A stretch of 64,000 bases of DNA from Pedobacter jejuensis (lineage in GTDB: Bacteria; Bacteroidota; Bacteroidia; Sphingobacteriales; Sphingobacteriaceae). This document shows positions 10,128-49,299 of the stretch, piece after piece; position 1 is the first letter of the stretch, and every line of letters starts with the position of its first letter. The stretch covers positions 62,001 through 126,000 of the forward strand of contig NZ_RBEE01000042.1 of NCBI RefSeq assembly GCF_003725795.1, read 5' to 3'. Made by a program: the position numbers and the translations under genes. The notes beneath the pieces were generated by a model. The model saw only the letters and a program-made list of their open reading frames with translations. It ran no database searches and had not been told where the DNA came from.

Positions 10128-10139
10128 GGGAATTTTGGG

Positions 10140-10305
10140 TTATGGTTTATGAGTTATAAATTACAAGTTGTAGGTTACAGATTACGAGATATCATTATAA
10201 AAGGTTGTTAATAATATACTATATGCAGAAGTTGATATTTAATTTTTATTTGTGATTTCTGGCGCTTTAACTCGTAACTGGCAACCCGAAACCGACAACC
10301 TAATT
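10140..10305 (-). repeat. Heptamer array with two complementary arms between panB and the RluA gene
   Basis: Plus-strand bases 10140-10188 are seven consecutive 7-mers of the form TTRYRRN, such as TTATGAG, TTACAAG and TTACGAG. Bases 10271-10305 are five consecutive 7-mers such as CTCGTAA and CCGACAA. The far arm is the degenerate reverse complement of the near arm; TTACGAG and CTCGTAA are an exact pair. Most differences among the first-arm words are transitions. The loop between the arms is unrelated sequence. Confidence 0.7.
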
Positions 10306-10315
10306 ACTCACAACA

Positions 10316-14869: not shown

Positions 14870-15066
14870 GAACTATAAACTTGAGTTCGATTATTAATGT
14901 TCCTTCGCATTAATAAGTAAGCTGCCTTTTTTTAGTTAACGTCACCCTGAATTCATTTCAGGGTCTTTGTTGCGGGAAAGATGCTGAAATAAATTCAGCA
15001 AGATGTGTACTACTAGCAATAACGTTGATAAACAGCTTATTAAGTTTAAGAAAAAAACTCAGGTTA
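14870..15066. repeat. About 190-bp palindromic element, copy A (MITE/REP-like)
   Basis: The ends are imperfect inverted repeats: AAACTTGAGTTCGATTATTA at the left, and on the right a sequence that reads back as a related GAGTTT...CTTAAACTTAA. Inside are CCCTGAATTCATTTCAGGG (14945-14963) and TGCTGAAATAAATTCAGCA (14982-15000), two separate palindromes. A clearly related copy with the same internal order lies at 21201-21391. No ORF is carried. It fills the gap between convergent genes and touches the tetR stop codon. Confidence 0.75.
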
Positions 15067-18636: not shown

Positions 18637-21084
18637 ATGACAAAAATCTGCGCACTCCTATTCTTTTGCTGTATTGCAAATGTTGCTTTTTCGCAACAAT
18701 TTTCAGTTTCAGGCACTATAAAAGATACTAGCGGGCAACCTGTTCCTTTTGCATCAGTTTACTTAAAAAATACAACACTTGGTACCTCAGCTAATATTGA
18801 CGGGAAATATGAGATTAAGCTAAATTCTGGTCAGCAGACCTTAAATTTTAGAGCCGTTGGATATAAGCAGCAAGATAATATTGTTAACGTTATAGCGCCA
18901 ATAACACTAAATATTACCTTAACATCAGAAAGCTATACGCTTGATAACGTAACAATTAAGGCTAATGCAGAAGACCCAGCTTATGCAATTATTCGCAAAG
19001 CGATTAAGTTGCGGAAAACCCATTTGGAAGAAGTAAAATCTTTTACGTGTGATGTATATATAAAAGGCGTACAGCGCCTGGTAACTGCACCAAAAAAGTT
19101 TATGGGGCAGGATATTAGAAAAGTGATGGAGCTGGATACCAACAGACAAGGCATTATTTATTTATCCGAATCACAAAGCAAATTTAGCTTCAGAAGACCA
19201 AATGATGTACATGAGGAAATGATATCGTCAAAAGTAGCAGGCCGAAATAATGCGTTTAGTTTTAATAAAGCTTCTGATTTAATCATAAACTTTTACGACA
19301 ACTATTTACTAGAAAATACTTTAAGTGCCCGTGGTTTTATTTCTCCAATTGCAGATAATGCACTATTTTATTATAAGTACAAATATTTAGGAGAAACAAA
19401 AGAAAATGGAGAAACGGTAAATAAAATAGAAGTCATTCCACGTAGACCAAATGACCCTGTTTTTAGAGGGATAATTTATATTTTGGATGACAGCTGGAGA
19501 ATTTACAATACCGATTTATTCCTGACCAAAAGCTCAGGAATAAACTTTATTGACACTTTATCTATAAACCAAGGTTTTACAAAAGTTAAAAACGTTTATA
19601 TGCCTACAAACATCAATTTTCAATTTAATGGAAATGTTTTGGGGTTTAAGTTTGCTGGATACTATGTTGGTGTATATAGTAATTATGATATTTCGCCAAT
19701 CTTTCCGAAAAACTTCTTTAATGGTGAAATTTTAAAAATTACTAAACTGGTTAATAAAAAAGATTCGATTTACTGGAACAACAATCGCCCGATTCCATTA
19801 ACAGCCGATGAAAAAATTAACTACGTAGTTAAAGATAGCATTGCGAAACGAAAGGAATCAAAAACCTACCTCGATTCACTAGAAAAAGAGAATAACAAAT
19901 TCGGAATTGGTAAGCTATTATTAAGGGGATACAGTAAAAACGATAGATATGATAGTGTTTACATTTCATTCGACCCTGTTTTAAGGGCTTTAATGTACAA
20001 CACTGTTGAAGGTTTTGCAATTAAATATGGTGTAACCTATCGTAAAGTATTTGGCGATAGGCGATTTTATAGCATCAGACCAGAATTGAGGTACGGATTT
20101 GCCAATCAAAAATTAACAGGAAGTTTAATGGGAACATATTTTTACGACCCATTAAAAAGAGCAAGCGTTGGTGTATCGTTTGGAAACGGGATTTTCGACT
20201 TGAACAATTTAGCTTCAATGACACTGTTAGGAAACACCATTAACTCATTACTTTACGAGAAAAACTTTATTAAATTTTATGAAAAGAGTTTTGTAAATAT
20301 TAATACAACCAGAGAGTTAGCTACAGGCTTACAGGGTTCGATAAGTGTAGATTATGCAAGAAACCATACATTAACCAATAATTCTAATTTTAAGTTTTTT
20401 GATAATAAGGATAGAGAATTTACCTCAAACAATCCATTTACGCCAACAACTGAGACACCACTTTTCCCAACATATACTTCTGTTAGTGCATCGGCAAGTT
20501 TAACTTACACCATTGGTCAGAAATACATTACACGCCCTGATGGTAAATTTTACACTGAATCTCGTTTTCCAAGAATTACGGTGCTGTATAAAAAAGGCTT
20601 TAATGGGCTTTTAAATAGTGATGTCGACTATGATTTTGTGAAAGCAGAAGTTTATCAGGATAGAATTGGTTTAGGTTTATGGGGCTATACATCATTTTTA
20701 GTTGGTGCAGGAAAGTTCTTAAATAACAGTAAGATTTATTACCCTGAATACAAACATTTTGCCGGTAATATTTCTACCATCTTCCCTCCTAATTTAAGAA
20801 AGTTTCAATACTTAGAATTTTATCAGTTCAGTACCAATCAACAATATTTTGAGGCACATTTAGAGCACAATTTTGCAGGTTTCTTTTTAAACAAAGTTCC
20901 ATTATTAAGAAAAGCAAAACTTGAAGAATTTATTGGAGGAGGCTATTTATCATCACCAGAAAAAAGAAATTATAAAGAGTTTTACTTTGGTTTGCAACGC
21001 TTAGTTTTAAGGGTTAGCTATGGTTTTGCTTATGATGCTGCTAAAAAAATTAACCAAGGATTTAGAATTAGTTACACGTTTTAG
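18637..21084 (+). CDS. DUF5686 family outer-membrane protein with carboxypeptidase-regulatory-like domain
   Basis: An 815-residue exported protein. The signal peptide ends near FSQQ (residue 20). Residues 20-110 form a carboxypeptidase-regulatory-like beta sandwich (VSGTIKDTSGQPVPFASVYL, SANIDGKYEIKL) as found at the start of SusC proteins. The rest is the DUF5686 region, starting with DPAYAIIRKAIKLRKTHLEE, rich in aromatic alternating strands and ending in FRISYTF, consistent with an outer-membrane barrel with a terminal aromatic residue. Function unknown; it lacks a recognisable TonB plug. It ends directly against a hexamer repeat array. Confidence 0.8.
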   Translation: MTKICALLFFCCIANVAFSQQFSVSGTIKDTSGQPVPFASVYLKNTTLGTSANIDGKYEIKLNSGQQTLNFRAVGYKQQDNIVNVIAPITLNITLTSESYTLDNVTIKANAEDPAYAIIRKAIKLRKTHLEEVKSFTCDVYIKGVQRLVTAPKKFMGQDIRKVMELDTNRQGIIYLSESQSKFSFRRPNDVHEEMISSKVAGRNNAFSFNKASDLIINFYDNYLLENTLSARGFISPIADNALFYYKYKYLGETKENGETVNKIEVIPRRPNDPVFRGIIYILDDSWRIYNTDLFLTKSSGINFIDTLSINQGFTKVKNVYMPTNINFQFNGNVLGFKFAGYYVGVYSNYDISPIFPKNFFNGEILKITKLVNKKDSIYWNNNRPIPLTADEKINYVVKDSIAKRKESKTYLDSLEKENNKFGIGKLLLRGYSKNDRYDSVYISFDPVLRALMYNTVEGFAIKYGVTYRKVFGDRRFYSIRPELRYGFANQKLTGSLMGTYFYDPLKRASVGVSFGNGIFDLNNLASMTLLGNTINSLLYEKNFIKFYEKSFVNINTTRELATGLQGSISVDYARNHTLTNNSNFKFFDNKDREFTSNNPFTPTTETPLFPTYTSVSASASLTYTIGQKYITRPDGKFYTESRFPRITVLYKKGFNGLLNSDVDYDFVKAEVYQDRIGLGLWGYTSFLVGAGKFLNNSKIYYPEYKHFAGNISTIFPPNLRKFQYLEFYQFSTNQQYFEAHLEHNFAGFFLNKVPLLRKAKLEEFIGGGYLSSPEKRNYKEFYFGLQRLVLRVSYGFAYDAAKKINQGFRISYTF

Positions 21085-21089
21085 GGAGA

Positions 21090-21522
21090 GGCTGAGATCG
21101 AGATTGAGGTTAAGGTTGAGGTTGAGACCGAGATTGAGGTTGAGGTTGAGACCGAGATTGAGGCTAAGGGTAAGACCGAGATTGAGAGAGATTTTAATTT
21201 ATAAACCTGAATTGAATTATTAATTTTCCTTTACAATAATTAATAAGCTGCTTATTTTTTTTTAGCGTCACCCTGAATTTATTTGAGGGTCTTATTTGCA
21301 GGAAAGATCCTGAAATAAATTCAGCAATACGTGTGTTACAAGCAACTGCGATAACGCAAAATATTAAGTTTAAGAATCGAACTCGGTTTAGAAAGTAAAT
21401 GGGCTAGATTATACTTTTTACCCTAATCAATCTCATCCTTGGCCTCAACTACTCTCAGCCTCAACGTTAACCTTAGCCTCAGCCTTAACCTCAACCTTAA
21501 CCTCGATCTCATTTTCCATCTC
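21090..21522 (+). repeat. Long hexamer-array hairpin flanking a nested 190-bp element
   Basis: The left arm, 21090-21191, is 17 consecutive 6-mers such as GGTTGA and GATTGA. Units 5-16 form three copies of a 24-nt higher-order repeat (21114-21137, 21138-21161, 21162-21185; the first two identical). The right arm, 21457-21522, has 11 consecutive 6-mers such as AACCTT and AGCCTC, the degenerate reverse complement of the left arm, with further imperfect copies back to about 21427. Base changes are mostly transitions. The array starts 6 bases after the DUF5686 stop codon. Confidence 0.85.
21201..21391. repeat. About 190-bp palindromic element, copy B, inside the hexamer hairpin
   Basis: Homologous over its length to 14870-15066: the same order of a left inverted end, GCGTCACCCTGAA, CCCTGAATTTATTTGAGGG (21271-21289), then TCCTGAAATAAATTCAGCA and a right end with ATTAAGTTTAAGAATCGAAC. 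Left and right ends are imperfect inverted repeats. It sits exactly in the loop between the two hexamer arms. Confidence 0.75.
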
Positions 21523-21534
21523 ACATAATTTCCT

Positions 21535-21542
21535 TATCTTTG
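21535..21542 (+). promoter_or_regulatory. Putative -7 box (TATCTTTG) of trhO
   Basis: An exact TAnnTTTG match 40 bases before the trhO ATG, at the edge of the right hexamer arm. The leader also holds an inverted repeat CCGTT-TGC-AACGG. Confidence 0.5.
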
Positions 21543-21582: not shown

Positions 21583-22530
21583 ATGAAAAAATATCAAACC
21601 ATACTTTACTATTGCTATAGTTACATAGCAAATGCGGAACAATTTGCCGCAGACCATTTAAAATTTTGTAAATCTTTGGGTTTAGTCGGGCGGATTATTG
21701 TTGCCGATGAAGGTTTAAACGGAACAGTTTCGGGTACAGCTGAAGCTTGCGAAACGTATATGAAAACCATTCATGCAGATGAAAGATTTGCGAAAACGGA
21801 ATTTAAAATTGATGAGGTTGAAGAACCATCTTTTCTTAAAATGCACTGTCGTTATAAATCAGAAATTGTTCATTCTGGTTTAAGAGATACATCAATCATC
21901 AACCCTAACAAACAAACCGGTAAACATTTAGAGCCTGTCGATTTTATGAAAATGAAAGACGATGATGATGTTATCGTTTTGGATGTACGCTCTAACTACG
22001 AACACAATTTGGGTAAGTTTAAAAATGCGGTTACACTTGATATAGAAAACTTCAGAGATTTCCCAGAACAAATAAATCAACTCGCTAAATACAAAGACAA
22101 GAAAATTTTAACGTATTGTACGGGTGGCATTAAATGCGAAAAAGCATCGGCTTTATTGTTGCACCACGGTTTTAATGATGTTTATCAATTACATGGCGGC
22201 ATTATAAAATATGGTAAGGAAGCTGGTGGGAAGGATTTTGATGGAAAATGTTATGTTTTTGATAACAGAATTGCAGTTGATGTTAATGAGGTAAATCCAA
22301 CAGTAGTATCTGTTTGCTACAATTGCGGAACCACAACGCCAAAAATGATAAATTGTGCCAACCCGGAATGCAATGAACACATAACGCAATGCGATGATTG
22401 TGGCGAGAAACTGCAAGGATGTTGTTCTGTGCAATGCACAACCAACCCAAGAAAACGCCCTTACGATGGAACCGGATATTATGTAAAAGTACCGCAGCCG
22501 GTAAGCAAAAAAACTGAGCTGGCTGAGTAG
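21583..22530 (+). CDS. trhO: tRNA uridine(34) hydroxylase, oxygen-dependent (rhodanese-domain TrhO)
   Basis: TrhO hydroxylates wobble uridine in tRNA to 5-hydroxyuridine using molecular oxygen. The N-terminal domain (residues 1-110) carries GLVGRIIVADEGLNGTVSG. The central rhodanese domain holds C179 and C185 in TYCTGGIKCEKASALLL, the strictly conserved active-site loop of the family. The C-terminal tail has a run of Cys pairs (CYNCG, CANPEC, CDDCG, CCSVQC), probably a zinc-binding module. The 315-residue length fits. No neighbouring tRNA-modification gene is seen. Confidence 0.92.
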   Translation: MKKYQTILYYCYSYIANAEQFAADHLKFCKSLGLVGRIIVADEGLNGTVSGTAEACETYMKTIHADERFAKTEFKIDEVEEPSFLKMHCRYKSEIVHSGLRDTSIINPNKQTGKHLEPVDFMKMKDDDDVIVLDVRSNYEHNLGKFKNAVTLDIENFRDFPEQINQLAKYKDKKILTYCTGGIKCEKASALLLHHGFNDVYQLHGGIIKYGKEAGGKDFDGKCYVFDNRIAVDVNEVNPTVVSVCYNCGTTTPKMINCANPECNEHITQCDDCGEKLQGCCSVQCTTNPRKRPYDGTGYYVKVPQPVSKKTELAE

Positions 22531-40216: not shown

Positions 40217-40413
40217 TTTTAGTATCAAGTAGTTAGCTTCGAGTGTTTAGTATTTAGTCTTAGTATCGTGACTAAACCTATACATACACCTTTCAACCAA
40301 TTTTTTTTATATTTTTAATTTGTTCTTTCAGCTCTAGCCTTTCAGCTTTATTCTTTCAGCTTTAATCTTTATTCTTTTAGCTTTAGTCTTTCAACTTTAC
40401 GCTTTTAGCTCTT
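40217..40413 (-). repeat. Heptamer/14-mer tandem array between yebC and the threonine dehydrogenase gene
   Basis: Plus-strand bases 40323-40413 are 13 consecutive 7-mers of form NNCTYTN, mostly alternating TTCTTTC and AGCTTTA types, so the array reads as six 14-mers plus one 7-nt half unit (40365-40371). The last unit runs into the 3' end of the dehydrogenase gene and covers its stop codon. The other side of the gap has TTAGTAT-type words and a local hairpin TTTAGTC/GACTAAA. Confidence 0.8.
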
Positions 40414-44142: not shown

Positions 44143-44148
44143 TAAAAA

Positions 44149-44219
44149 GTTAAATGCGAAAGGTTTAAGGTTTTTGGATAAGTCCATTAACCTTAAGCCT
44201 TTTGTCATTATCTTAACCT
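44149..44219 (+). repeat. Heptamer hairpin array ending at a start codon
   Basis: The left arm is five 7-mers at 44149-44183 (for example GTTTAAG); the right arm is five at 44185-44219 (for example CTTAAGC). Unit-by-unit they are degenerate reverse complements; the best stem pairs 44159-44172 with 44189-44202, 13 of 14 plus one G-T wobble. TTAACCTTA occurs twice, the second copy ending on the A of the next gene's ATG (44213-44221). Confidence 0.7.
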
Positions 44220-44220
44220 T

Positions 44221-49128: not shown

Positions 49129-49299
49129 AAGGACAAGGTTGAGATTAAGGCTGAGGTTAAGACCAAGCAAAAAAAATATATCGGAAGCTAGATTAAGATT
49201 TATAACTAAAAAAGATATCTATTTACTATAGCCAACCTTAAACTCAATCTGAACCTTAGTCTTAACCTTAACCTCAGTCTCAACCTTAACCCTTAAACC
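49129..49299 (+). repeat. Hexamer array with complementary arms between DUF1080 and the permease gene
   Basis: Seven phased 6-mers start on the base after the stop codon (49129-49170), for example AAGGTT and GAGGTT. Eleven phased 6-mers lie at 49234-49299, for example AACCTT and AGTCTC, the degenerate reverse complement. The vocabulary is shared with the array at 21090-21522. The loop (49171-49233) is AT-rich and unrelated. Confidence 0.85.

Follow-up and report, generated by a model that had tools for sequence, protein, structure and literature searches.

The gap between the DUF5686 gene and trhO in Pedobacter jejuensis (hereafter the trhO gap) contains a hairpin from a fast-changing class of intergenic repeat hairpins that extends across the genus. 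Its hexamer unit is not unique, but one dialect within this class, and comparison of related sequences indicates that the units at this site were swapped many times. We consider it probable that slippage built an STRR-like intergenic hairpin, that inverted copying preserved the complementarity of its arms, and that a MITE was inserted afterwards. Positions given below refer to the window, i.e. the whole stretch of 64,000 nt that was analyzed; the features are listed in Table 1.

Table 1. Features of the trhO gap and related features elsewhere in the window.
Feature	Position	Strand	Basis and remarks
DUF5686 gene (PF18939)	18637..21084	+	ORF list, Pfam; TAG stop (21082-21084) adjoins array
Left arm, 17 phased degenerate hexamers	21085..21186	+	Sequence, TRF, genome pattern search
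Three 24-nt higher-order copies	21115-21138, 21139-21162, 21163-21186	+	TRF
185-bp MITE-like element in loop	21204..21388	.	Genome-wide copies, alignment
Terminal inverted repeats of loop element	21204-21218 and 21375-21388		
Palindromic core of loop element	21273-21324		
Right arm, C-rich, complementary to left arm	21431..21516	+	Stem search, TRF, unit-shuffle test
Remnant of older ATG-dialect 7-mer right arm	21510..21533	+	Overlaps end of paired arm in part
Bacteroidota -7-type promoter box TATCTTTG	21535..21542	+	Gap comparison; assigned by motif only
trhO (UPF0176/rhodanese) gene	21583..22530	+	Pfam
Second window copy of element, without hexamer arms	14876..15066 (about 14870-15066)	.	
Second hexamer hairpin of window	49135..49287 (arms 49135-49167 / 49255-49287)	+	Element-free loop; conserved in P. 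mendelii

The hexamer reading of the left arm starts at the base right after the TAG stop codon of the DUF5686 gene. The sequence-only reading had described seventeen phased hexamers, twelve of which formed three copies of a 24-nt unit, and had seen duplication at two scales in this arrangement. All seventeen were present; each of them ends in GAG or AAG, and the G-rich strand is the coding strand. The 24-nt copies (hexamers 6-9, 10-13, and 14-17) were recovered by TRF as a repeat with a period of 24, 3.2 copies, and 88% match. The first two copies are identical and the third has diverged. Hexamers and 24-nt copies together thus support duplication at both scales. The right arm, previously taken to be the reverse complement of the left, is largely but not exactly complementary to it: 76 of 86 stem positions paired in the stem search (approximately 21088-21175 with 21431-21516), with phased hexamers at 21454-21504. 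The stem scored 63.9, compared to 32.7 ± 5.8 after shuffling the order of units, and none of 200 shuffles scored as high; unit order, and not composition alone, is therefore matched between the arms. The predicted RNA fold of the gap has an energy of -170.7 kcal/mol (z = -13.8 versus shuffles). None of the ORFs listed for the gap reached 80 aa, and an RNA-family search returned as its sole match a chance similarity to mir-44 below threshold.

The loop harbors a separate element, as had been noticed from the sequence, although its length is 185 bp instead of 190 bp. The other copy reported for the window was also found and is one of about 60 full or partial places that the element occupies on its own strand in the 4.8-Mb genome; its palindromic core has additional, weaker reverse matches. 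Aligned copies end in AACCTGAGTTCGATT and AATCGAACTCAGGTT; in the consensus, these are perfect terminal inverted repeats of 15 bp. Several copies have AT-rich, TATAA-like flanks on both sides; those of the copy in the trhO gap are imperfect. The element is MITE-like, an ordinary dispersed repeat: it is short (about 185-200 bp), non-coding, bounded by terminal inverted repeats (15 bp in the consensus), and multicopy, with dozens of dispersed copies. Unlike in MITEs, many copies lie in tandem clusters, and the core palindrome also occurs alone elsewhere. At C42:251630-252287 of the source genome (G000) and at similar sites, parts of the element form tandem clusters of several copies, many of them with the flank GAGCGCAGCGGAACAGAGAGATCTTTGACC. 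The core is bounded by ACGTC/GACGT, as in REP and CGTC-tagged palindromes (PMC3733652). REPs, however, are 20-40 bp in length (PMC3733652), whereas the palindrome described here forms the core of a longer element with terminal inverted repeats. Hexamer arms were detected at only 1 of 37 distinct element copies tested, namely the one in the trhO gap, and targeting of repeat hairpins by the MITE was rejected on this count. Other high scorers in the test were clusters of the element itself.

Hexamer arrays occur elsewhere in the 4.8-Mb genome. Three consecutive YYRAGR units gave 130 matches, compared to none for the reversed pattern. The genome has about 20 hexamer loci, most of which are one-armed; clear two-armed hairpins were found at five of them, comprising the trhO gap as well as C9:45286, C12:82599, C42:111139 (window 49139), and C42:203177. 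None of these four other hairpins carries the element. The right arm of the second hairpin in the window is re-ordered in P. mendelii. Matching of unit order between arms was weaker in the other two-armed hairpins (shuffle fractions of 0.005-0.24). Different hexamer loci share a unit grammar, but the unit order common to them did not exceed that of unit-shuffled arrays. Spread of the array by copying between loci was rejected, as the shared stretches were no longer than in unit-shuffled arrays; order shared between arms and not, beyond shuffles, between loci points to local growth rather than transposed copies. At C42:203177-203860 (L106), past a hexamer hairpin and before a further C-rich hexamer array, there is a small ORF whose product, by eye, looks like a four-helix-bundle (S23/IVP-type) protein.

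Arms and element are thus separate things, given about 36 other element copies without such arms and four hexamer hairpins without the element. This agrees with the independence proposed by the sequence-only reading and excludes the inseparable arms-element unit that it had named as its refutation. Insertion of arms and element as one composite mobile element is accordingly highly improbable: both are absent from P. mendelii at the trhO site, which speaks for it, but the separate occurrences contradict it, and so does a remnant of an old 7-mer arm adjoining the hexamer arm (see below). Two orders of events had been envisaged, insertion of the element into a pre-existing loop or growth of the arms around it. 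The former fits better for two reasons. Loops of the four other two-armed hairpins measure 74-149 nt, and the 255-nt loop of the trhO gap is reduced to ~70 nt without the element; furthermore, a hairpin occupies this gap in most relatives, and the element was present there in 0 of about 47 genomes. We infer that the arms came first and the element second; at the trhO site, both the element and hexamer arms are absent from every sister. In other species (loci L227, L122, L131, L132, and L139), hairpin loops in the trhO gap hold unrelated insert-like palindromes, which suggests repeated uptake of inserts. A MITE nested in a hairpin indicates that such loops tolerate insertions.

DUF5686 adjoins trhO in about 47 genomes, and 39 close gaps were used for folding. 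These folded better than shuffles, with a median z of -3.4 and z below -2 in 27 of the 39. In most relatives, the hairpin is built from other degenerate units, mostly 7-mers, including AAGGTNN, ATG(T/G)AAR, AAAGNNN, and AAGTTNN. Hexamer arms are absent from this site in all relatives, even in P. mendelii, the closest relative in the set (82% DNA identity over DUF5686 and trhO), whose 125-bp gap holds an AAGGTAG hairpin. The comparison of sister gaps that had been suggested for ordering the events therefore yielded hairpins without the element, but no hexamer arms without it. With unit types scored by eye from the right arm adjoining the promoter box, the two-gene tree of 38 labelled species requires a minimum of 15 changes, and types differ within well-supported sister pairs. 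In P. chinensis (locus L138), AAGGT-type hairpin units of ~60 bp are tandemly expanded, and the gap has a length of 829 bp.

Traces of such a replacement appear in the P. jejuensis gap itself. The 27 nt upstream of the promoter box have 19-23 positions identical to those of 12 ATG-dialect species and at most 15 identical to those of all others, which suggests that a remnant of an earlier right arm of the ATG type has persisted next to the hexamer arm. The box occurs in most relatives' gaps. In the alignment of ATG-dialect relatives, inspected by eye, the right arm was conserved and no clear compensatory change was seen. Three points go beyond the sequence-only reading: the hexamers represent a single dialect of a class that spans the genus, hexamer arrays mostly have one arm, and the array in the trhO gap overlies an older 7-mer hairpin.

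To describe this class, arrays with periods of 5-10 were surveyed in 444 kb and 400 kb of the source genome and in 217 kb of P. mendelii. Genes were uncurated longest-ORF calls, the arrays counted were those well above dinucleotide shuffles, and genome-wide counts were based on pattern searches and sampled stretches. Of 368 tandem gaps, 34 had arrays, with 0.8 expected, compared to 6 of 183 non-tandem gaps (2/78 convergent and 4/105 divergent); a period of 7 was most common. Their polarity followed a strict rule: all 15 arrays adjacent to a stop codon were G-rich on the coding strand, and all 18 adjacent to a start codon were C-rich. Array-free gaps displayed weak skews only. A TAnnTTTG box was present in 3 of 34 array gaps versus 84 of 326 others (p = 0.03). 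A survey of 400 kb in each of two further species again gave far more arrays than expected, and their polarity, in small numbers, had the same direction; tandem enrichment (14/231 versus 5/127) and depletion of the promoter box were not significant there, and 3 of 51 convergent gaps had arrays. Replication in 44 other Pedobacter loci yielded three arrays, too few for a test, again with polarity in the same direction.

Between orthologous gaps of the source genome and P. mendelii, dialects had switched, whole arrays had been gained or lost, and unit numbers had changed. Of 145 genomes of the genus, 9 carried the hexamer dialect, 63 carried ATG(T/G)AAR, and 87 carried ARGGTNN. A model with one dialect per species was rejected, since a single genome carries many. 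In C23, 3 of 123 tandem gaps held arrays, a much lower share than the 24 of 161 in C42, and the 675-kb C23 contained no four-unit hexamer arrays; there is thus a regional bias within one genome.

By analogy, the hairpin of the trhO gap would work most like the heptameric intergenic repeats of Xanthomonas (GGGAATC) and Nostoc (GGGGA(C/T)T), its nearest published kind (PMC4692102). Those heptamers lie between aligned genes, at most 50 bp from the stop codon on the sense strand or from the start codon on the antisense strand, and they often occur as inverted pairs; pairs able to form stem-loops numbered 70 and 75 in two Xanthomonas (PMC4692102). The Pedobacter arrays likewise consist of short degenerate tandem units, mostly between co-directed genes, and obey the same strand rule (G-rich sense after the stop, antisense before the start); inverted array pairs also occur, at 5 of about 20 hexamer loci. 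They differ in that many unit dialects exist side by side in the genus and that one orthologous site can carry different dialects in sister species. STRRs have 7-nt units, whereas the unit in the trhO gap has 6 nt; most related arrays, both elsewhere in this genome and at this site in relatives, have 7-nt units. The G-quadruplex repeats of Xanthomonas and Nostoc contain runs of at least three G per unit, compared to runs of two in YYRAGR. With a 6-nt unit lacking G-triplets and a quadruplex signature, the hairpin was not classed as a member of the STRR/heptamer group. A literature search, with subscription journals mostly outside its coverage, found no paper on such arrays in Bacteroidota.

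In the history that we favor, the array would have grown by replication slippage directly 3′ of the DUF5686 stop codon, and a 24-nt block would have been duplicated later within it. Inverted copying inside the palindrome, by template switching (quasi-palindrome correction), would have upheld the complementarity of the arms. Since the arms share unit order and separate loci share grammar only, slippage in place and arm-to-arm copying are the likely makers of array and arms. The hexamer hairpin would have taken the place of an earlier 7-mer hairpin, of which a short piece is left, and the 185-bp non-coding element would later have entered the loop by ordinary transposition. Against this history, the target-site duplication of the copy in the trhO gap is imperfect. 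The transcript presumably folds, and the hairpin would then mark the boundary between DUF5686 and trhO, the latter having its own promoter-like box.

The hairpin may have a function at the RNA level, given that relatives' gaps fold well and that polarity follows from whether a stop or a start codon is adjacent. Selection on RNA via a wobble bias was rejected for arrays generally: mismatches in array stems comprised 41 G-U versus 67 A-C, the opposite of the prediction. At the trhO site, the counts were 49 versus 29, from related sequences.

Two roles were considered. As an intrinsic terminator, the hairpin would end the DUF5686 transcript before the trhO promoter, and repeat arms would be a tolerated way of building a stem. 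The stem follows the stop codon, as in Rho-independent terminators, and precedes the conserved promoter-like box in most relatives; in ACCTT-dialect relatives, a T-tract follows it. However, the stem in the trhO gap is followed by CATCTCACATAATTTCC, with no T-tract and no terminator-like site on the + strand, its loop spans 255 nt, and ATG- and AAAG-dialect relatives have no T-tract either. Moreover, arrays were not enriched between convergent genes in either survey, where terminators are most needed. We therefore regard a classical terminator role as unlikely.

Alternatively, the hairpin could be an intercistronic RNA device that folds out the gap and brings the stop codon near the start, thereby coupling or stabilizing translation of the neighboring genes. 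Under this reading, leaders would remain G-poor since translation initiation in Bacteroidota uses A-rich, G-poor leaders. The position of arrays flush with stop or start codons and the rarity of the promoter box in array gaps of the source genome and P. mendelii are consistent with it. For cyanobacterial STRR hairpins, effects on transcript stability, translational coupling, or termination were suggested (PMC2670836). On the other hand, a promoter-like box and a leader of ~40 nt separate the hairpin from the trhO start, array stems lack a G-U bias, and neither tandem enrichment nor promoter depletion was significant in the two further species. On balance, this role is possible but rather doubtful.

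A broader proposal, which we advance as speculation and consider improbable, is that an active process in Pedobacter rewrites gaps with hairpins of a few dialects under a fixed strand rule, convergent with Xanthomonas and Nostoc through a role in polycistronic mRNA. If true, hairpin and position would persist while the intergenic sequence is replaced wholesale. 

One orthologous gap offers a natural record of at least 15 hairpin replacements across 38 species with fixed gene order, and the rule for strands next to stop and start codons agrees with that reported for unrelated phyla. With this record and the cross-phylum rule, it becomes possible to test an old question: are short-repeat arrays between genes debris of slippage, or do they form a structural part of polycistronic mRNA?

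Further 7-mer hairpins or arrays between co-directed genes were noted in the window at 2837-2920, 10128-10315, 40229-40404, and 44143-44220, in different dialects (ATGTGAG, AAGTTNN, CTTTNAG, and AAGGTTT). Finally, pure telomere-like TTTAGGG arrays start 1 nt past a stop codon at C42:49822 of the source genome (~8 copies) and at C8:44229 of P. mendelii (G188; ~9 copies).
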